This document shows, piece after piece, positions 1,724-14,827 of a stretch of 20,060 nt of DNA. Numbering within the stretch: position 1 is the stretch's first letter; each line of letters opens with the position of its first letter. The stretch lies in the IMG/VR virus record IMGVR_UViG_3300027881_000111, positions 1 to 20,060 of that record; one strand, given 5' to 3'. The notes below the pieces were generated by a model. It searched no databases. It saw nothing but the letters and a program-made list of their open reading frames with translations, and was not told the origin of the DNA. This DNA comes from a virus. The position numbers were made by a program, and so were the translations under genes.

Positions 1724-2031
1724 CAGACGATGGAATCGGTAAAGACGTAAGACCACCCAAAAAGGACAAACGATCAAAGCCCAAGCAGTACATCGGGCCG
1801 GATGGATTGAAGCGTCCACCGAAGTTCGAGCATAACCTTAACGAGAGTTTTGCCATTATCTTCAGCAGCGCAGCCGGTAAGGATGTTCTCGATTACCTCA
1901 AATCTGTAACGACTGGTCGAGTATTACCGCCCGGTCTGGATGCCAATGCGTATCCATATCAGGAAGGAGCCCGTTGGCTGATGGGCATAATTGCTACACG
2001 AATCAAAGACGGTGAGGACAAAAAACCATGA
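1720..2031 (+). CDS. Small Bbp19-like protein between portal and scaffold
   Basis: This 103-residue protein has a Lys/Pro-rich basic N-terminus (about residues 8-35) followed by a compact domain containing FAIIFSSAAGKDVLDYLK and EGARWLMGIIATRI. The pattern of an aromatic segment, a G-x-x-VL-x-x-L helix and a later EG-R helix resembles the small Bbp19-type proteins found between portal and scaffold in Bordetella phage BPP-1 and many environmental podoviruses. Their molecular role is not established. The position suggests a part in prohead assembly or DNA packaging. It overlaps both neighbours by four bases (ATGA at 1720 and at 2028), so it is probably translated stoichiometrically with the portal. 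The family assignment is from memory of the pattern and is moderately sure; the coding call is secure. Confidence 0.82.
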   Translation: MTDDGIGKDVRPPKKDKRSKPKQYIGPDGLKRPPKFEHNLNESFAIIFSSAAGKDVLDYLKSVTTGRVLPPGLDANAYPYQEGARWLMGIIATRIKDGEDKKP

Positions 2032-2807
2032 AATATCTACTCAAATTACTATGGATATTCCTCCCACGCGAAGGCGAGGGCGAGGGTGAGGGCGAAGGCG
2101 AAGGCGATCAGAAGCCATTGGGCGGCGACGATCCTGATGCCAAACCGGACTGGCTTGCAGAGAAATTCTGGAATCCTGACCTGAAGGCTCCGCGTGTCGA
2201 GATCCTTGGTAAAGCCTACAACGAGATCGAAGGCAAGATGCGCGGTAAGACCGACGAGCTCAAGGATGAGATTCGTACAGAAATGAGCGCGGCAGCACCG
2301 GAGAATTACACGGTGAACTTGGCCGAGGATCTGAAGATCCCAGATGGAGTCGAGCTGGATTTCTCCGAGGAAGACCCGCTTGTAAGCTGGTTCTTTGGCT
2401 TTGCCAAGGAAAACGGTCTGTCGCAGGAAACCGTTGACAAGGCGCTGAACGAATACGTTGGCATCGAGCTTGGCAACATGACCGACGTTGGTGCGGAGAT
2501 CGAGAAGCTAGGCGATCATGGACAGGATCGGTTGCTTAAGGTCCACAACTGGCTAGAATCAAAGCTCTCAGACGTTCAGTTTGCATCCATCAATCCGCTT
2601 TTGAGTTCAGCGGATCAGGTGGAAGCCTTGGAAGTTCTAATGAAATCAAGCGGGCCAGGAGACTTTGACGGCGACAGCGGCGGTTCCCCATTGACGCTTG
2701 CAGAGTTACGCACAATGCAAAATGACAAGCGTTACTGGCAGGATAAAGACCCGGCTTTCATCAAGACGGTCGAAGATGGCTACGCGAGACTTTACAAGGG
2801 GCAGTAA
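2028..2807 (+). CDS. Capsid assembly scaffolding protein with hydrophobic leader and Glu-Gly repeat
   Basis: This 259-residue acidic protein occupies the T7 gene 9 position directly before the capsid gene. It would form the internal scaffold of the procapsid and leave before or during packaging. The body from about residue 34 has the typical look of podovirus scaffolds: KPDWLAEKFW, a short charged coiled-coil-like helix (KMRGKTDELKDEIRTEM), an AAPENYTVNL strand, paired helices and a C-terminal helix with DPAFIKTVEDGYARLYKG. Two features are odd. Residues 1-14 (MKYLLKLLWIFLPR) are strongly hydrophobic with spaced lysines, and residues 15-26 are six Glu-Gly pairs. The start cannot sensibly move downstream, because the next in-frame ATG is near residue 71, inside the conserved body, while GAGGA lies upstream at 2015-2019 with about 8 bases to the ATG. 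The start also overlaps the preceding stop (ATGA). The leader is therefore part of the protein unless processed. Confidence 0.88.
   Translation: MKYLLKLLWIFLPREGEGEGEGEGEGDQKPLGGDDPDAKPDWLAEKFWNPDLKAPRVEILGKAYNEIEGKMRGKTDELKDEIRTEMSAAAPENYTVNLAEDLKIPDGVELDFSEEDPLVSWFFGFAKENGLSQETVDKALNEYVGIELGNMTDVGAEIEKLGDHGQDRLLKVHNWLESKLSDVQFASINPLLSSADQVEALEVLMKSSGPGDFDGDSGGSPLTLAELRTMQNDKRYWQDKDPAFIKTVEDGYARLYKGQ
2070..2105 (+). repeat. Hexanucleotide repeat encoding (Glu-Gly)x6 in scaffold
   Basis: Six tandem units of the form GARGGY encode alternating Glu and Gly at scaffold residues 15-26. Units differ only at third codon positions. The repeat sits exactly between the hydrophobic leader and the conserved scaffold body, so it reads as a flexible, highly acidic spacer. 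Such a repeat may change length by slippage. Confidence 0.9.
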
Positions 2808-2821
2808 ACAGCCTTATTATT

Positions 2822-2855
2822 CGGGTCGAAGGCCGCTACCAAGCGCCTCGGCCCG
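2822..2855 (+). promoter_or_regulatory. GC-rich hairpin between scaffold and capsid genes
   Basis: Bases 2822-2836 pair with 2843-2855 around a six-base loop TACCAA at 2837-2842. The stem has 13 pairs (one G-U) interrupted by two single-base bulges, C2833 and A2829. No T run follows, so it does not look like an intrinsic terminator. It could be an mRNA processing or stability element that uncouples scaffold from capsid message, or a pause site. No promoter resembling the T7 late consensus is seen in the gap. Confidence 0.55.
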
Positions 2856-2882
2856 GGTTCCCCGGCACAACCGATTAAGGCG

Positions 2883-2926
2883 CCAAGTAGAGATAACCTG
2901 AAACGGTATCCTCAATCTACTTGGAG
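2883..2926 (+). promoter_or_regulatory. Hairpin overlapping the capsid gene ribosome binding site
   Basis: CCAAGTAGA at 2883-2891 is a perfect reverse complement of TCTACTTGG at 2916-2924. Inside this 9-bp stem, 2892-2898 pairs with 2905-2910 (six pairs, one bulged A) around the loop TGAAAC. The outer stem ends on the first two bases of GGAG (2923-2926), the ribosome binding site placed 6 bases before the capsid ATG at 2933. Folding would partly occlude ribosome access, so this is a candidate translational control or mRNA processing element. Confidence 0.6.
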
Positions 2927-2932
2927 AAATAA

Positions 2933-3799
2933 ATGCACTTGCTCCGATTCGTCCTTGGCTTCATCTTTCCGATGGATGTCAACTCGATCGACACGGCGTT
3001 TACGAAGCAGTTTGAGTCAGAGGTTCACCTTGCATATCAACGCTTGGGGTCCAAACTGCTCAACACTGTTCGACGTAAAACGAATGTCGTCGGCAAGTCC
3101 ACTACCTTCCAGATCATAGGTAAGGGTATCGCTGGCACCAAGACCCGAGGCGGTCAGGTTCCGATTCTTAATCTCGTTCACACCAATGTCGAATGCACGC
3201 TGAAAGATCGTTATGGCGGCGAGTTCATCGACAAGCTGGACGAGCTCAAGATCGAACATGACGAGCGTGGAGCTGTCACAACCTCCATCGCCGGCGCTTT
3301 GGGTCGCGCATCTGATGCTGACATTGTTGCCATCACTGATACTTTCACGCAAGAAACGACTGATACGGGTGTGGTAACACAGCCGAAGGTCGAGGCAGCG
3401 TTCGAGTACATGGGTGAAAACGATGTTCCTGACGATGGCCAGCGGTTCCTTTGCGTTGCTCCGCAAGGTTGGACTGACCTCATGGGTCTTTCGCCCTTCG
3501 CATCTCTGGACTATGTTCCCGAGTCTGACCTGCCATTTCCAAAGGTAGGATTCAGTGCGAAGAATTGGTTCTCTTTTAACGTCTTCACCTTCTCAGGCTT
3601 AACGCTTACTGGTGGCACCGTTCGTCAGAACGTCGCTTACCATAAGACAGCGATTGGTCATGGGTCGGGACAGGACGTTCAAATGGACATCACCTGGCAA
3701 GGCAAAGAACAGTCGCATCTCGCGGTTGGCTCTATGTCGATGCAAGCCTGCATGATCGACCAGATCGGCGGGTATCGCATTCGCTCTACGGAGATTTAA
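2933..3799 (+). CDS. Major capsid protein with a 13-residue hydrophobic N-terminal leader
   Basis: This 288-residue protein is the likely HK97-fold shell subunit. The body starts at residue 14 with MDVNSIDTAFTKQF, followed by SEVHLAYQRLGSKLLNTVR, which is the usual N-arm pattern of podovirus coat proteins, and TTFQIIGKG. Later segments (VTQPKVEAAFEYMGENDVP, RFLCVAPQGWTDLM, AYHKTAIGH and IGGYRIRSTEI) fit the peripheral and axial domains of this family. Position after the scaffold agrees. In front of the body are 13 extra residues, MHLLRFVLGFIFP. I kept the upstream start at 2933 because GGAG lies 6 bases before it, whereas the internal ATG at 2972 has no ribosome binding site. Virion mass spectrometry would settle which N-terminus is used. 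This gene is not overlapped by its neighbours, unlike most others in the operon, consistent with independent high-level translation. Confidence 0.93.
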   Translation: MHLLRFVLGFIFPMDVNSIDTAFTKQFESEVHLAYQRLGSKLLNTVRRKTNVVGKSTTFQIIGKGIAGTKTRGGQVPILNLVHTNVECTLKDRYGGEFIDKLDELKIEHDERGAVTTSIAGALGRASDADIVAITDTFTQETTDTGVVTQPKVEAAFEYMGENDVPDDGQRFLCVAPQGWTDLMGLSPFASLDYVPESDLPFPKVGFSAKNWFSFNVFTFSGLTLTGGTVRQNVAYHKTAIGHGSGQDVQMDITWQGKEQSHLAVGSMSMQACMIDQIGGYRIRSTEI

Positions 3800-3802
3800 C
3801 AT

Positions 3803-4087
3803 ATGAAAAACTTCTTCATTAAATTAGCTCTCCGGTTCCTTCCCTGTGCATTTGACGCGACGAACATGAATCGTCTGCAACTCGGCACTTGCACCATGTG
3901 GGTTTACAAAACGGTCGAAGCGATCGCCGCTGTAGAAGTCTCTGGTTATTTCAATGACTACTACGAGCAGTTCAACAACGGTGACATCATCTGGGTTAGT
4001 GACACCAACCTAAACCTGATTAACACCCTCGGTGTTACATCGGCTGATGGTGCTTCTACTGTAACTACGCTTGTCGCTGTAACGTAA
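3803..4087 (+). CDS. Small capsid-linked protein with the same type of hydrophobic leader
   Basis: This 94-residue protein starts three bases after the capsid stop, with GGAG at 3790-3793. The body from the internal Met at residue 22 (MNRLQLG) contains CTMWVYKTVEAIAAVEVSGYFND and GDIIWVSD. That WVY-x-T, SGYFND, GD-I-V pattern recurs in small proteins encoded next to capsid genes in many environmental phages. Their role is unproven; a head decoration or vertex protein is a reasonable guess from position. The first 14 residues, MKNFFIKLALRFLP, closely resemble in character the leaders of the capsid and scaffold proteins. The internal ATG at 3866 has no ribosome binding site, so the upstream start is preferred. 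It is the last gene before the terminator-like hairpin, so it probably shares the abundant capsid transcript. Confidence 0.85.
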   Translation: MKNFFIKLALRFLPCAFDATNMNRLQLGTCTMWVYKTVEAIAAVEVSGYFNDYYEQFNNGDIIWVSDTNLNLINTLGVTSADGASTVTTLVAVT

Positions 4088-7569: not shown

Positions 7570-10232
7570 TGGCTAGACTCCGCAGACAGATTGGGATCAA
7601 TACCGCAGCGGTACGTTTGCCTGAAACGACAAGTGTTGGCCCTGCTCTCGTTAAGACGGCAACAAGCGTAGCTAACCTGGCCTTTGAAAGAAATGCCGAT
7701 AGGGTTACGCAAGAAGCACAGATGGCCGCGGCTGCACTCAATTTTGAGCGCGACGGTGATGGCAATCTAACCGCTCCGAGTTTGCCGCTTGCAGAGAATG
7801 GCTTACTGGCTCCAAGCATTTACGACCGCGCTTACACACAAATGGTGTCAACTCGTTATCTCAATCAGATGAAGATTGATATGGCGAAGCGCCTGAATAC
7901 GATTGCCACAGAAAATCGTTTTGATCCGAAAGCCTATGATCTGCTCGGTAATGCCTACGTCAACAAAATGACTGAGCTGGCACCGGATATGCTCAAGCCT
8001 GATGTGAATCAGAGTGGGCAGGTAATTACGGTTGAACACTACAACCGGATCATTCGAGTAACAGCAGAGCGCGATCACGCCGAAGCGCGTGAGGTACACC
8101 TTAATTCCATCCAAACGATCAGGAACGATCTGATCGGTTACGTTGAATCCGACGCACCACAAGATGTTATTAACGCACAAATGATGAAGCTCCGCGCTGC
8201 GATTGTAGAAGGCCGAGACATCAGGGAGGGCGGGTTCAGTTTTTGGAATGACGCAGAAATGTCCGATATGTTGGATGACGTTGAACAAACCTATGCTCTT
8301 TCGAGATTGGTCGCCAGCGTCGTCAACTTGCCAGATGATCCGGTTGCTCACGCTGAAGCGTTGCAAGCCTTGACTGATCTTGCTCTCGGTGAGGGCTCGA
8401 TTCAAATGATTGATGAATTTGGCGAAGCGTATATATCCCCGGTGGCTGAGATTTGGCCCAACCCTGCCGACCGTATTGCGCTTTCCGCAATCGCCAGCGA
8501 TGTACTTCGCCTGAAGGGAATTGCTTTTCAAGGAGTGCGTGATGCACGACTGGATCGCAAAGTGATTGATTTCTTTAACTGGTTCACGCCGCACGCTGTA
8601 CACAATCTACCGAAGGGAATCCCATTAGACATAGACCGTCTTTACGATGAGTTCTTGAAGGCGGACGCTGATGTTAAGTCTTTTGGTTTCGACGACACAT
8701 TACGCGAAGCTATTGCAGATATTATTTTAGGCACGCTGACTGGCGGCCCAAACATGACCCAATGGGAGGAAGATTTTATACCCGGTTGGCAAAGCTGGAA
8801 TGAACGATTTGAAGCTGAAGTTCTTCGACTGCTTGACGGTGAACCAATGGAGTCGTACAGCAAAGAAGAACAGCGTGAAATAGCCAATGCTGCTTATGAC
8901 ACGATTGGTAGCGTACCTGGCGGTCACGATCAGACCCCAGATGGAGCGCGGGAGATCTGGAAATACTACAACGGCATGACCGGCCTCGAGCTAGATCAAG
9001 GTTTTTACGATGACCTGATTGATAACCCCAATCACCCGAGATGGGCGGATCTTGACTACTTTGTTCCGGGCCAGCTCGCGCATATCGGTATCTGGCAAAA
9101 AGAATTGAGCGACGCAATCATCGGCAGGCTTATGGACCCCGAGGGAATGAATACCTCAACCCTTACGCAGACAATGAGATTGGCCCGTAGGTTCTGGGAC
9201 TCGCCCTCATTCAGAGACAATATGCAGGACAAGAACGCGCTCGGCCCGCAGGTTGGTGGTGCGCTCGAACTGATATTTGATAATAACGGAATGATTACTG
9301 CTGACAACGTACAGAAGGTTTTGGAGAGCTTTGGTCGTTCCGGCTACAACCCGCATATGAAATATGATGATATGTCCGATTTGGTAAAAGCCGAGTGGGA
9401 AGCAAAGGCTAAAGCCTATCTTGAAACGAAATTCACAAACAACTGGTGGGCGCTTGGAATTATTGGAATGGGTGTGAAGGGCGTAGAAGTGCCGCGTTGG
9501 TTTGAGGGTGGCTACAATCCTCTCGCGCCACAGCTCACCGGGATCGACGGGATCTACCAAGATCGGATTATTGGTAAGCTGAAACTGAAGTCTGGTCGCA
9601 TGGACCCTGATAATCCAGACGCATTCTCTCCGTTCATCAATGACGCTGTAAACGAGGTCATGAAAGAGAATGGATTGGCTCCAACTAAGATCGGGTTCAG
9701 CGCGACCCGCTACAGCAATTACTATGAGTGGAGTGGTTGGCCTAACACTTGGCCGAGAGAGTTTTCAAGACCGACCTGGGCCATTGTTCAACGACCGCCT
9801 GAGTGGTATGTCGCTCAAGACAAAGATATTTCTAAGGGTGGGGTTGTCAATCGCGATGCAATGGTTTATGTCGAGGATAACTTCCAGAAAATTCTTAATG
9901 ATTATAGTGAGCAAACGTGGCCGGGCGAGGAGCCGCATTATAAGGCTGGCGTAAATGCCGGTCTTCGGTATTCCGGGCTTAATACTGCACCCGACAGGCT
10001 CGGCCAGCCAACTTGGGAAATCGTTCTTCTCGCCAGAAATGGGGTTGACCAGAAAATATTGACCAAGCAAGGAAAGTGGGGAGATGTTCGAGTTCTGTTC
10101 ACTTTGGAGAATGCTCTCAAGCGATACAGAGAAGATAGGCAAGCTGGTCGCCTTTTAGGATCAGAGGCTTCTGGCCGGATTCGGACGTACCATCAAGAAT
10201 ACAGACCGTATTACACAGGGCCGCGTCCGTGA
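7569..10232 (+). CDS. Internal virion (ejection) protein at the T7 gp15 position
   Basis: This 887-residue, largely alpha-helical protein lies between the gp14- and gp16-position genes and is somewhat longer than T7 gp15 (747). In T7 this protein forms a tube with gp16 that spans the host periplasm during genome ejection. The N-terminal 130 residues are Ala-rich helices (TSVANLAFERNADRVTQEAQ) as expected. The C-terminal third is rich in Trp, Tyr and Pro (for example YYEWSGWPNTWP and PTWAIVQRPPEWYV, about residues 718-745), with a PTWEIVLLARNG segment about 75 residues later that looks like a second version of PTWAIV. I see no peptidoglycan hydrolase motif. The start overlaps the preceding stop (TAATG) and its stop overlaps the next gene's GTG start (GTGA). 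Confidence 0.85.
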   Translation: MARLRRQIGINTAAVRLPETTSVGPALVKTATSVANLAFERNADRVTQEAQMAAAALNFERDGDGNLTAPSLPLAENGLLAPSIYDRAYTQMVSTRYLNQMKIDMAKRLNTIATENRFDPKAYDLLGNAYVNKMTELAPDMLKPDVNQSGQVITVEHYNRIIRVTAERDHAEAREVHLNSIQTIRNDLIGYVESDAPQDVINAQMMKLRAAIVEGRDIREGGFSFWNDAEMSDMLDDVEQTYALSRLVASVVNLPDDPVAHAEALQALTDLALGEGSIQMIDEFGEAYISPVAEIWPNPADRIALSAIASDVLRLKGIAFQGVRDARLDRKVIDFFNWFTPHAVHNLPKGIPLDIDRLYDEFLKADADVKSFGFDDTLREAIADIILGTLTGGPNMTQWEEDFIPGWQSWNERFEAEVLRLLDGEPMESYSKEEQREIANAAYDTIGSVPGGHDQTPDGAREIWKYYNGMTGLELDQGFYDDLIDNPNHPRWADLDYFVPGQLAHIGIWQKELSDAIIGRLMDPEGMNTSTLTQTMRLARRFWDSPSFRDNMQDKNALGPQVGGALELIFDNNGMITADNVQKVLESFGRSGYNPHMKYDDMSDLVKAEWEAKAKAYLETKFTNNWWALGIIGMGVKGVEVPRWFEGGYNPLAPQLTGIDGIYQDRIIGKLKLKSGRMDPDNPDAFSPFINDAVNEVMKENGLAPTKIGFSATRYSNYYEWSGWPNTWPREFSRPTWAIVQRPPEWYVAQDKDISKGGVVNRDAMVYVEDNFQKILNDYSEQTWPGEEPHYKAGVNAGLRYSGLNTAPDRLGQPTWEIVLLARNGVDQKILTKQGKWGDVRVLFTLENALKRYREDRQAGRLLGSEASGRIRTYHQEYRPYYTGPRP

Positions 10233-13200
10233 CAGGCAATCGCATATCCGACATTCTTGGATCGCCGCCGCCTGTTTATCAATCTGAGAAGCAGCGTCAT
10301 GGCACTCGCATGGATGCGGTGCGTAATGCCTATATGCTGGATACCTCAATAGGACAAATGACAGTACTGGCTGCAACGTCCGAAGCATTTGGCGTTCCGT
10401 TGGTGAGAATGTTTCGTCGAGTCCAGCCCGGTTACAGTCCATACAATCCAGAAACGGAAAATCTGGACGGATTTGGTTATTGGATGGATGAGTTCAAAGA
10501 TTCAACGTCGCCTGAAGAAACGGCGATGATTAAACAGATGATCGAAAACAATCTCGATATGCGTATGGAGCTCGAGGGGTGGGGCGGCACACGCTTGGCT
10601 ACCAACTTCCTCGATCCTATCAACTTGATCCCTGTCCCATTTGCTCTTGGCAAGGGTTTTTCTGAAGGAGCGAAAGTCGCACTCAAGCGTGGTATTCCTA
10701 TTGTTGCCGGCACTGAGATTGTTAGGCACAACATTGATCCGACTTCCACCGTGGAAGAAACCATATTTGCTACTCTTGGTGGCAGTCTGTTCATGGGTTT
10801 GATCGGTGGTGCTGTCGGCAAGATCCCGAAGAACACGATTACTGTTGGCGAAGCGCTTCGTCGAATAACTCCACCGCCCGGCACTACGAGTATGTCTGTT
10901 GGCATTCCGTGGTCGTATGGCGGGACCAGGGCCAGTCTGTTTGGTCGTGCAACTCGCGCACTCAAGTCTGCTGTTGGTTACGGAGATTCGATAGAAACTC
11001 GCGTTAATCCTGAATCTTTCTCGCTGAAGATTATTGACGACGACCCAAAACGTATCAGGGTAAATGTTCATTATGGCGAGGAAGGATCAATACTAAGTGC
11101 TGTTCGAGTTGGCGATGAGCTTCAAATTAAATCGCTATTCGTACCAGAAGAAATTCAGCGCAAAGGTATTGGTTCATATGCTGTTCGTATGGCCGCTAAG
11201 TATGCAGAGGATCACGGTCTCCGCTTGGTGTCAGACCATACTATGACGCCGGATGCTTTGAAGTTGTGGAAGTCTTTTGAGGCTGAAGGCTACAACGTCC
11301 ACGAAAATAAGAGCTTCAGCACAGATCCAGACGGCACTCGCTTTTCAGTTGGTGATGAGGGCAGGCCAAGTTTAGATCCACTGTTCGAGCTCAAGCGACA
11401 AATTGATCCAGACCAAATGCCAGCGGAAGCGCGACGAGCTATTGAGGAAATGGAGCTTGCGGCAAGGGAAGCTGAAGCAGAACTGAAACTTCACCACAGG
11501 TACATCAAGGAGCTGAAGCAACTTGTTAAGCAAGCTGTTGCAAAAGCTGGAAAGGCTGTCGTTGCTGGCGGTGCAAAGACAAAGGCAACGAAAGCTGCAA
11601 AGATCCTGAAGGATGAGTTAAGGCAGGCACTCAAAGATGAGAAGGGACTTCGTGATAATGCGATGCTGGCTCACCGTCAGGCTCAGGATATAAACATCAG
11701 ATCAATCGAGCTGCTTGACGCACAAACTGTCAAGGATTGGGATCTGTTGCCGACTGGCTACAACAAACTGTTGGGCAAGCTGGATCAGTTTCCGTGGTGG
11801 AGGCTACTCAAAACACCATTGAGAGGGATTGCACCGGACCTGGCCGTTCGCTATCAGATGTTTGCACTGAAGATCGCGTCGACGCCCGGCCTGAACAACA
11901 AGGGCAACAAGCTCAAACACTCAACCGGATCAAGCGTTGAATCTCTTGCCATTATTCATACTGGCCGGTGGCTGGCTGCTACCCGGGAAGCTCAGAACAT
12001 TTACCGCAAGTACATTGGTCATGGTGCATCGTCCGGACAGATCAAGCATTTTGTCATTGACCAAACTCAGCGAGTCCGCGGAGCGCTTGAGAAGTTTGGC
12101 ACTGGCGAAAAGCCGACGAAGACCCCTGATGGATTTCTCACCATTGAGGAGTTTGATCTTCAGATCAGTATTGCGATCGCGCAAGGTGGTAAGCATTCAG
12201 AGGCCGCGGTCGCTAAAGCGGCGGCTGGTTATGTCAAGGCTTTGAAGGAGCTTGGTGACGAAGCCAGAAGGCTTGGGATTACTGCCACACAGAAAAACAT
12301 CGCTCGCCGCATCGAGAATCTCAAAAGGCAAATTGATGACTTTAATGAGAAGTGGTCGGAAAAATATGACACAAGGCCAAGAAGTCTTGATGATCTCGAG
12401 GCTGAATCTAAAGCACTTGACGATGAACTTCGGGAATTTGCGACAGAGTTAGGAGTTAGCGATCCTGATGCCTATATCAATTTAACTCGTAGAGTCTTGT
12501 TAGCAGAAAAAGACGATGCTGCACGTTCTGTTGATCCCGATACAGGCAAGAGTTTTACCATTGATGAGCTAATGGCTCAGGTAAAAAAAGAAGGCGGTAC
12601 TCTTGAGCTTGGTGCAGAATTTTCTCGCCGTCGTGGTTACACACCAGAGGAGATTGAGGATTTTGTAAGTTGGCACGATCAAACTAAAGCATATATTGAT
12701 TCAGGACAAATTAGTGCTAATGATCTGGCGGCATTAACAAAAGAAGTTGGTGATGCGTTGAAAGCTCCATCACAGCTCTTGAGCCTACCGGAGTTACCGC
12801 CAGGTTTAAGGAGCGCACGCGACAGGTGGGTTTTGGAGATTGAGGAACTTTTAGGTTTGGAGCAAGCCTACAGGGTTTCAGATAATCCTAGCTTCATTCA
12901 CCGTATGTGGATCGCGGAAGAAGTAAAGGCTCAGGAGATTGAGCTAAAAGCTATGCTCACCCGCGAGTTCAATCAAAATCCAAAGCAAGTATTCAAGGAT
13001 GCTGAGGGAAATGTTGTTCGTGAACATCCAGACGTAATACTTGCCAGAGTGAATGAGGCTTATGCTGGAATCTTGCATGAAGCAGATACCGGCAACAATG
13101 GCGCGTATGCACCAAAGAGCTCACACAAGCGTCCGTGGCTTGAAGCTCGTAAGAAAGCGATCGAGGATGGAACATTTCGCAATGCCGATGGCAGCGAGGC

Positions 13201-14827
13201 AAGCCCCAAGACCAAAGAGGTAATGCTAGAAATCATCGACGCCAAGCTCGAGCAGATTGCTCGCGGCGGCGGCGGTGGTGGAGTGTCCGGCCCTTTAATT
13301 GCCCGGGAACTTGATCTTGACGATGTATCGCTTCTGAAGATGGGTTTGATCGAAGGCAATGTTAATACGTGGATGCAGCACTACGTTTCCCGAACTGCCC
13401 CAATGATCGAAACTGCCAGAATGTTTGGTGATGCTCGGGCGCAGCAGTTTATTGATGAACTCATTTCAGACACATGGGCGCGAGCTGAAGCTGAGACTGA
13501 TCCAAAAATAAAGAAAATTCTTTATGAGGAAGCGGAGGGCGGTGCTGTTGCGATGAACGATCTTCGCGACATCGTTCACGGCACATGGCAAATCCCCACT
13601 AATCCTGATGCGATTACTCCGAGAATACTGAGGATGTTGCGTAACTTTAATATCCTTGGTGCGATGGGTCGCTCGGTAATGATGGCCCTGGGTGACATTG
13701 GCAACGTGGTTGTGAGTCAGGGTTTCACTCGTTCGCTTGGTCACGCTTTTGAGAGTTTTGCATCTGGTATTACTGATGGCAGTATCAAGATGATGCGTAA
13801 TGAGGTTGACTTGGCCGGCTCGGTTAGTGAAGTCATTCTCGGTATGCGTTACCACCAGATGACAGACTTTGGTATTGCGGTTGGTTCGTCGAAGTATCCC
13901 GGCTTGGCGCGGTTCGAGCGCGGGCTTGCGAATGCTTCGCAACGCTTCTTTCTTTACAACCTTCTTGGTCCTTGGACCGATATGGCTCGGCGTTTTTCTG
14001 GCGGTATGTTGCAATCTAAGATCATCGAAAACTCTCTCTTGTGGAGGGCAGGCAATCTTGCAGATGATGAGATAACTATCATGACCCGGCTTGGCATTAA
14101 CGAGAAACAAGCCATTCAGTTCGCCGAGGAATGGGAAGCAAGCGGCAAACTCAAACATGGAAAGATGTACATTGCCAATACTTCCGAATGGGTGAGTGAA
14201 CAGGGAACGCGAACATTTCGTGCTGCGCTGAATACCGAGATCAATCGCATGGTGCCGACGCCCGGCGCGGTCGACAAGCCGAAGGGGTTGCTCAAAGGGG
14301 AGTGGTGGAAGGTAATCGGCCAGTACCGAGGTTTTAGCATCGCCGCCACACATAGGATCATGGGCGCTGGCATCCACCAGAAGGGCGCTCAGAAGTACTC
14401 AGGACTGGCCTCGATGGTCGGGATCGCCATGATGGTCGACGCCTTCAAACGGCCTGATTACATTCAAATGCCGTTTGAGGAACAGATCCTCAGAGCTGTG
14501 GAATTGAGCGCAGTTACAGGCATTATTCTTGATCTGAATGACACGCTCGAGCGAGCCACCGCCGGCGCCATTGGAATACGACCAATGCTCGGTATGGACA
14601 TTCGTGAGCGCAGTCCCAATTGGGCTAACAGGATGGGGACATTGGGTGCTGTACCTAACCAGTGGTTGACCCTGATGTATGGCCTGACGGCTGATGAGGC
14701 TGAGACTGACGACCTTGCCAGAGCGATACGCTACATGATTCCATACAACAATCTTCTATGGTGGAACGAGGCATTTACAAGAGCGCAGCGTGCATCCGTA
14801 GACTTTATTGAGGACAGAGAACAATGA
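10229..14827 (+). CDS. Giant internal virion (ejection) protein at the T7 gp16 position, with embedded GNAT-like domain
   Basis: At 1532 residues this exceeds T7 gp16 (1318) and is the largest gene here. It starts with GTG in a GTGA overlap. The order seen is: an N-terminal helical region; a Gly-rich hydrophobic segment near residues 178-200 (LGGSLFMGLIGGAVG) that could contact membrane; a GNAT-like domain at about 263-373; Lys/Ala-rich coiled-coil helices around 400-490; further helices with ARRIENLKRQIDDFNEKW near 690; a Gly6 run near 1013; and a C-terminal region at roughly 1120-1420 with IGQYRGFSIAATHRIMGAGI and MVPTPGAVDKPKG, a block shared by large ejected podovirus proteins. The T7 lytic transglycosylase domain normally found at the N-terminus is not recognisable. 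It probably forms the inner-membrane part of the ejection channel and could carry the enzyme domain into the cell. Confidence 0.88.
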   Translation: MTGNRISDILGSPPPVYQSEKQRHGTRMDAVRNAYMLDTSIGQMTVLAATSEAFGVPLVRMFRRVQPGYSPYNPETENLDGFGYWMDEFKDSTSPEETAMIKQMIENNLDMRMELEGWGGTRLATNFLDPINLIPVPFALGKGFSEGAKVALKRGIPIVAGTEIVRHNIDPTSTVEETIFATLGGSLFMGLIGGAVGKIPKNTITVGEALRRITPPPGTTSMSVGIPWSYGGTRASLFGRATRALKSAVGYGDSIETRVNPESFSLKIIDDDPKRIRVNVHYGEEGSILSAVRVGDELQIKSLFVPEEIQRKGIGSYAVRMAAKYAEDHGLRLVSDHTMTPDALKLWKSFEAEGYNVHENKSFSTDPDGTRFSVGDEGRPSLDPLFELKRQIDPDQMPAEARRAIEEMELAAREAEAELKLHHRYIKELKQLVKQAVAKAGKAVVAGGAKTKATKAAKILKDELRQALKDEKGLRDNAMLAHRQAQDINIRSIELLDAQTVKDWDLLPTGYNKLLGKLDQFPWWRLLKTPLRGIAPDLAVRYQMFALKIASTPGLNNKGNKLKHSTGSSVESLAIIHTGRWLAATREAQNIYRKYIGHGASSGQIKHFVIDQTQRVRGALEKFGTGEKPTKTPDGFLTIEEFDLQISIAIAQGGKHSEAAVAKAAAGYVKALKELGDEARRLGITATQKNIARRIENLKRQIDDFNEKWSEKYDTRPRSLDDLEAESKALDDELREFATELGVSDPDAYINLTRRVLLAEKDDAARSVDPDTGKSFTIDELMAQVKKEGGTLELGAEFSRRRGYTPEEIEDFVSWHDQTKAYIDSGQISANDLAALTKEVGDALKAPSQLLSLPELPPGLRSARDRWVLEIEELLGLEQAYRVSDNPSFIHRMWIAEEVKAQEIELKAMLTREFNQNPKQVFKDAEGNVVREHPDVILARVNEAYAGILHEADTGNNGAYAPKSSHKRPWLEARKKAIEDGTFRNADGSEASPKTKEVMLEIIDAKLEQIARGGGGGGVSGPLIARELDLDDVSLLKMGLIEGNVNTWMQHYVSRTAPMIETARMFGDARAQQFIDELISDTWARAEAETDPKIKKILYEEAEGGAVAMNDLRDIVHGTWQIPTNPDAITPRILRMLRNFNILGAMGRSVMMALGDIGNVVVSQGFTRSLGHAFESFASGITDGSIKMMRNEVDLAGSVSEVILGMRYHQMTDFGIAVGSSKYPGLARFERGLANASQRFFLYNLLGPWTDMARRFSGGMLQSKIIENSLLWRAGNLADDEITIMTRLGINEKQAIQFAEEWEASGKLKHGKMYIANTSEWVSEQGTRTFRAALNTEINRMVPTPGAVDKPKGLLKGEWWKVIGQYRGFSIAATHRIMGAGIHQKGAQKYSGLASMVGIAMMVDAFKRPDYIQMPFEEQILRAVELSAVTGIILDLNDTLERATAGAIGIRPMLGMDIRERSPNWANRMGTLGAVPNQWLTLMYGLTADEAETDDLARAIRYMIPYNNLLWWNEAFTRAQRASVDFIEDREQ
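11015..11347 (+). other. GNAT-like acetyltransferase domain inside the giant ejection protein
   Basis: Residues about 263-373 read like a GNAT fold. A beta strand LQIKSLFV leads into PEEIQRKGIGSYAVRMAAKYA, where Q310-x-x-G313-x-G315 fits the acetyl-CoA pyrophosphate-binding motif (Q/R-x-x-G-x-G/A) followed by its helix. A strand (LRLVSDH) and helix DALKLWKSFEAEGYNV then give the usual C-terminal part, where the family often has a Y-x-x-x-GF sequence. Homology is inferred from this order of elements. The catalytic base and substrate cannot be named. A degenerate domain with a structural role is an alternative. Confidence 0.65.

Follow-up and report, generated by a model that had tools for sequence, protein, structure and literature searches.

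Short N-terminal leaders on the scaffold, major capsid and decoration proteins of one podovirus clade: candidate co-assembly tags

The closest described counterparts of the leaders reported here are the encapsulation peptides of bacterial microcompartments, found on proteins such as PduP, PduD and CcmN. These are short terminal helices with poorly conserved, disordered linkers, which co-condense several proteins (PMC12339742) and bind in the grooves where shell tiles meet (PMC11157265). The likeness to the phage leaders lies in a short hydrophobic terminal helix, a poorly conserved flexible linker and the tagging of several proteins of one assembly (PMC12339742, PMC11157265), and it is a likeness by description. 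The phage leaders differ in that they are carried by capsid, scaffold and decoration proteins and are more hydrophobic, shorter and Pro-ended. Against the encapsulation-peptide pattern of a terminal helix of about 15–20 residues on a flexible linker, the leaders measure 12–20 residues in the core proteins and up to 26 in a fibre protein; a helix is predicted in the small protein only, with moderate pLDDT, and a clear variable linker is present in the scaffold only. In phage GP4 the N-arm of the major capsid protein (MCP) gives support to the cement trimer; the cement proteins of lambda and KHP30 extend their N-terminus to the MCP N-arm or the E-loop (PMC9698820). Membrane-associated procapsid assembly in SPP1 and T4 suggests a possible link between head assembly and the membrane (PMC13212656). 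SPP1 differs in that this link is attributed to the portal and not to tags on scaffold or shell proteins.

Among phages related to the studied clade by sequence or gene order, two cases are informative. The capsid of phage LME-1 (PDB 9eg4) contains an MCP and a decoration domain homologous to those of the clade. The LME-1 protein orf16 is longer (269 aa) and lacks a leader: it begins with the body Met (MAFGIN), which aligns with Cys15 of the corresponding window protein. Pelagibacter phage Hodr and related marine podoviruses display the same gene order of portal, scaffold, MCP, small protein and tail protein, with MCPs that are about 41–43% identical. In contrast to the clade, the three proteins of the Hodr group start with the body (MAEEQTQ, MSTSIST and MAYSASN) and carry no leaders. 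A limited literature search of partial coverage turned up no description of N-terminal tags shared among phage head proteins.

The window, that is, the whole analysed stretch of a 20,060-base virus record, contains a podovirus head–tail module. The portal gene (170–1723, PF12236) is separated from the scaffold gene (2028–2807) by a gene for a 103-aa protein. The MCP gene (2933–3799) follows, then a gene encoding a small protein of 94 aa (3803–4087), after which the tail genes are located. A clade-specific ORF overlaps the portal start (2–172 in the window, where it is partial; 16184–16573 in the relative G001) and encodes a basic-hydrophobic stretch, FRKKLRGIFSLLSGGF, followed by a Gly-rich tail that is Gly/Pro/Arg-rich in the window. 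No match to it was found in the outgroup genomes compared. A clade-specific receptor gene was considered and rejected, since this small Gly-rich ORF was the sole clear clade-specific gene seen in the structural region. Further downstream (10229–14827), a 1532-aa protein shows a weak match to an acetyltransferase (GNAT) domain at residues 295–338.

An earlier note on this DNA had described similar leaders on three consecutive head proteins, and all three were found at the starts of their genes on the plus strand, each behind a Shine–Dalgarno (SD)-like site. The scaffold leader MKYLLKLLWIFLP (2028–2066) is preceded by GAGG at 2014–2017; among 14 scaffolds its Pro13 is invariant and its Lys2 nearly so. 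It is connected to the body through a low-complexity tether, REGEGEGEGEGEGDQKPLGGDDPDAK (2067–2144, plus strand), which in the relatives is of very variable length and consists of GE/GD repeats, poly-Pro or PDPVPNP repeats. The scaffold body (2145–2804, plus strand) lies between the portal-side genes and the MCP and matches the T7-type scaffold family PF05396 weakly (E 2e-5; 25.4 bits, below the gathering cut-off of 27.1). It was not assigned to this family because its role rests on gene order, the weak profile match and acidic composition.

The MCP leader MHLLRFVLGFIFP (2933–2971), which is conserved across the relatives, is preceded by the SD sequence GGAG (2923–2926, plus strand) 6 nt before the leader ATG; the site is GGAG in the relatives and GGGG in L013. 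The body that follows (2972–3796, plus strand) is of the HK97 type and belongs to Phage_capsid_2 (PF19821, E 5e-51; 174 bits, above the gathering cut-off of 25), and the MCP profile finds the LME-1 MCP 9eg4_A with an E value of 2e-26. Upstream of the MCP, a 5′-UTR hairpin (2883–2924, plus strand) is conserved in the clade, and its 3′ arm touches the SD sequence. The hairpin has a six-pair core, AGTAGA/TCTACT, with three more pairs in the window, and its 5′ arm is followed by AGATAACCTG. It has no Rfam match, and no double covariation was seen in its alignment; in L013 the hairpin is perhaps shifted and compensated. A search with the hairpin DNA pattern returned only two new members (L114 and L139) and otherwise chance matches.

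The leader of the small protein, MKNFFIKLALRFLP (3803–3844), stands behind an SD sequence GGAG (3790–3793, plus strand) that is kept in the relatives. The body (3845–4084, plus strand) corresponds to phrog_18004. Among structures it is matched best by chain H (orf16) of the LME-1 capsid structure 9eg4 (Z 10.2, rmsd 1.8 over 71 residues; Foldseek E 2.9e-5), and a sequence profile search gives the same match with an E value of 5.2e-4. Fold and sequence identify the small protein as a capsid decoration (cement-like) protein matching the N-terminal domain of orf16. In the AlphaFold2 (AF2) model (pLDDT 83), the leader forms a helix at residues 2–12, followed by a low-confidence stretch at residues 15–19 and a folded, beta-rich body. 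Cys15 (3845–3847), which directly follows the leader Pro, is invariant in all clade members and replaces the ancestral start Met of the outgroup relatives. The predicted model of the MCP has a pLDDT of 35, too low to place its N-arm.

The leaders of the three core proteins are 12–17 residues long (20 in the scaffold of L013), consist mostly of Leu, Phe, Ile, Met, Val and Trp, usually bear a positive net charge (0 to +4) and end in two hydrophobic residues and Pro. Within 15 distinct MCP leaders, an Arg, Leu8, a small residue at position 9 and the terminal Pro are kept, barring one-residue length variants. The conserved residues are differently offset in each family, the Arg being located at −8 from the Pro in the MCP and at −3 in the small protein. 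A polar register common to all leaders appeared convincing at first (p 0.0002) and was rejected as mostly an effect of Lys or Asn at residue 2; beyond that residue the register is weak over seven families (p 0.005) and not significant in the three core families alone. The mean Wimley–White interfacial energy of residues 1–13 is −4.6 kcal/mol for the MCP against +0.7 in the outgroup, and −3.9 against +8.8 kcal/mol for the scaffold. By this measure the contrast is weak for the small protein (−1.9 against −0.1 kcal/mol).

A search of related phages for leaders on all three proteins, which the earlier note had proposed, found them throughout one clade and not outside it. The relatives are uncultured contigs, several of them near-copies of each other, and near-identical records were possibly left out by the search. 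Every whole scaffold, MCP and small-protein start in L001–L020, L114, L125 and L139, whose MCPs are 82–89% identical, bears a leader: of the type M[FHYN]LLRFLLGLIFP in the MCP, MKYLLKLLWLFLP in the scaffold and ...LLRFLPCAF in the small protein. In the outgroup, no leader is present on any of 60 MCPs, 49 scaffolds or 34 small proteins, and further divergent rows agree. At about 60% identity or less, the proteins begin with the body exactly where the leader ends (MADNTIS or MANTID in the MCP, MSEE or MNEE in the scaffold, MAYSAS or MALDRT in the small protein). The leader thus precedes the ancestral start, in line with the view that ordinary family bodies have been extended at their N-termini. 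In a tree of MCP bodies alone, the 16 rows with a leader group on a single branch (support 95/98; 96% of bootstrap trees), and none of 500 label shuffles was as low as the observed labelling. The search of bacterial genomes returned one gammaproteobacterial MAG contig with an MCP relative that lacks a leader. The leader set on the three proteins probably has one origin, and the best explanation of its distribution is that the ancestor of this phage clade gained all of these leaders together.

It is strongly indicated that the leaders are translated, and comparison of the homologous sequences indicates clearly that they are selected for their protein character. Both conclusions follow from conservation in the clade, the loss of internal Mets that have no SD sequence, the constraint on amino acids and the lack of excess pairing with the SD sequence. 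In codon alignments, the pS of leader and body is 0.60 and 0.62 in the MCP, 0.83 and 0.75 in the scaffold, and 0.70 and 0.71 in the small protein, while the pN/pS of the leaders is 0.35–0.43 (0.35 in the scaffold). Synonymous sites are therefore free and amino acids constrained, as the earlier note had expected. In the MCP the leader is less constrained than the body (pN/pS 0.37 against 0.15). That the true starts are the internal Mets and the upstream frames are open by chance is hardly credible. It is true that the ancestral start lies just past the leader and that a Met is often found there in the MCP. However, this Met is missing in several relatives (FPRQQN in L014, FPTIQD in L015 and L016, LVPRAV in L009), no SD sequence precedes it, the upstream SD sequence is conserved, the leader is under purifying selection and the scaffold has no alternative start. 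Internal starts are ruled out by the lost Mets and the missing SD sequences.

Two further explanations place the function of the leaders elsewhere. The codons could act in cis on translation, the CT-rich leader pairing with its own SD sequence, and in the window the small protein can indeed pair CTCCG with CGGAG (z −2.2). Compared with synonymous shuffles, however, the mean z over the relatives is +0.18 for the MCP, +0.84 for the scaffold and −0.65 for the small protein, and the synonymous sites of the leaders are as diverged as those of the bodies. The CT-richness is explained by Leu, Phe and Pro codons, and this alternative, largely refuted by the shuffle test, is very improbable. The leader could also be cleaved or serve export, as a Sec signal, a lipoprotein signal or a prohead-protease site, given its N-terminal position, basic start and hydrophobic core and the invariant Cys directly after the Pro in the small protein. 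This is improbable as well. By inspection, Arg or Lys interrupts the core of 9–12 residues, there is no AXA ahead of a cut, and the FLPC of the small protein departs from the lipobox [LVI][ASTVI][GAS]C in having Pro at −1. The residues that follow the Pro differ among the three proteins, and no protease gene was identified, with genes beyond the window annotated unsystematically.

We tentatively favour the reading that the leaders may be co-assembly helices of the scaffold, MCP and decoration protein. The leader on the MCP N-arm would pack against that of the scaffold, held on its flexible tether, during procapsid formation and later, at the shell, against that of the decoration protein. The leaders would thereby concentrate and staple both partners of the MCP in the manner of encapsulation peptides, and fibre-like or gp14-like proteins with such leaders would be recruited likewise. 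This reading is preferred because the constant leader bearers are the MCP and its two expected partners and because the scaffold leader sits on a non-conserved low-complexity tether. It is further supported by full conservation in about 20 contigs of one clade and absence outside it, by constraint at the protein level without excess RNA pairing and by the helix predicted ahead of the small-protein body. It is weakened by the differing offsets of the conserved residues and by the lack of co-evolution among the leaders of the three proteins in partial Mantel tests (partial r −0.30 to −0.08; 13 genomes, low power). The scaffold is moreover expected inside and the decoration protein outside the shell, so that one site cannot serve both simultaneously; leaders are borne by fibre-like proteins too, and the MCP model leaves the N-arm unplaced. 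It is also possible, if somewhat doubtful, that the leaders are membrane anchors, short in-plane hydrophobic helices with a basic start that would hold the three proteins at the inner membrane for head assembly. In these genomes the leaders of the MCP and scaffold rank with the N-termini of lowest interfacial energy, hydrophobic residues swap freely with the basic charge mostly kept, and pairwise co-evolution is absent, which anchoring would explain; SPP1 procapsids do assemble on the membrane (PMC13212656). However, the membrane location in SPP1 needs the portal and not the scaffold or MCP (PMC13212656), and in the present case the portal is leaderless. Anchoring would also require that hundreds of MCP anchors come free or become buried, the hydrophobic moment of most leaders is not above that of shuffles, and the strict conservation of Arg and Pro in the MCP exceeds the need of lipid binding. 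The predicted helix and the strong interfacial propensity fit both co-assembly tags and membrane helices.

The earlier view that the leader marks three head proteins is correct in that these three bear it constantly, but it is too narrow, since similar leaders occur sporadically on other proteins of the relatives; the tag is therefore not strictly a head tag. A gp80-like fibre (PF23140) carries one in G002, G009, L096 and L097 (the genes of the first two also being seen in L087 and L147, respectively), 13–26 residues long and ending in FFP or FLP ahead of the ancestral start MAEFS; four further phage records of a public collection have fibre homologues without it. Leaders are also present on a 168-aa protein in G002 and G009, on a 1332-aa protein in G002, and on a gp14-like protein only in G001, G003 and G004 (L085:4529–5116, corresponding to G001 23529–24119). 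The gp14-like orthologues of the window and of G002 start with MDGGA and have no leader. A small holin-like protein (L125:13522 and G002:740–1153) starts with MNIFSMIGQIFKP or MNVLGLIGQIFKP; these starts are similar to the leaders in their length and in the place of the Pro, and are possibly unrelated.

Taken more broadly, it is possible, though less likely than not, that the lineage evolved an assembly-tag system of its own, in which interchangeable N-terminal helices on scaffold, capsid and decoration proteins, and occasionally on fibre-like or gp14-like ones, would gather all the parts at one place, be it a helix condensate or the membrane, the MCP N-arm leader being handed from the scaffold to the decoration protein at expansion. 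Annotation pipelines that choose an internal start would hide such tags. The leaders may serve as small portable tags for the building of protein cages. Natural tags of about 14 residues on three working proteins, which can be added or removed, together with untagged relatives for comparison, make it directly testable how in HK97-type phages the proteins of scaffold, shell and decoration come together where and when they are needed.
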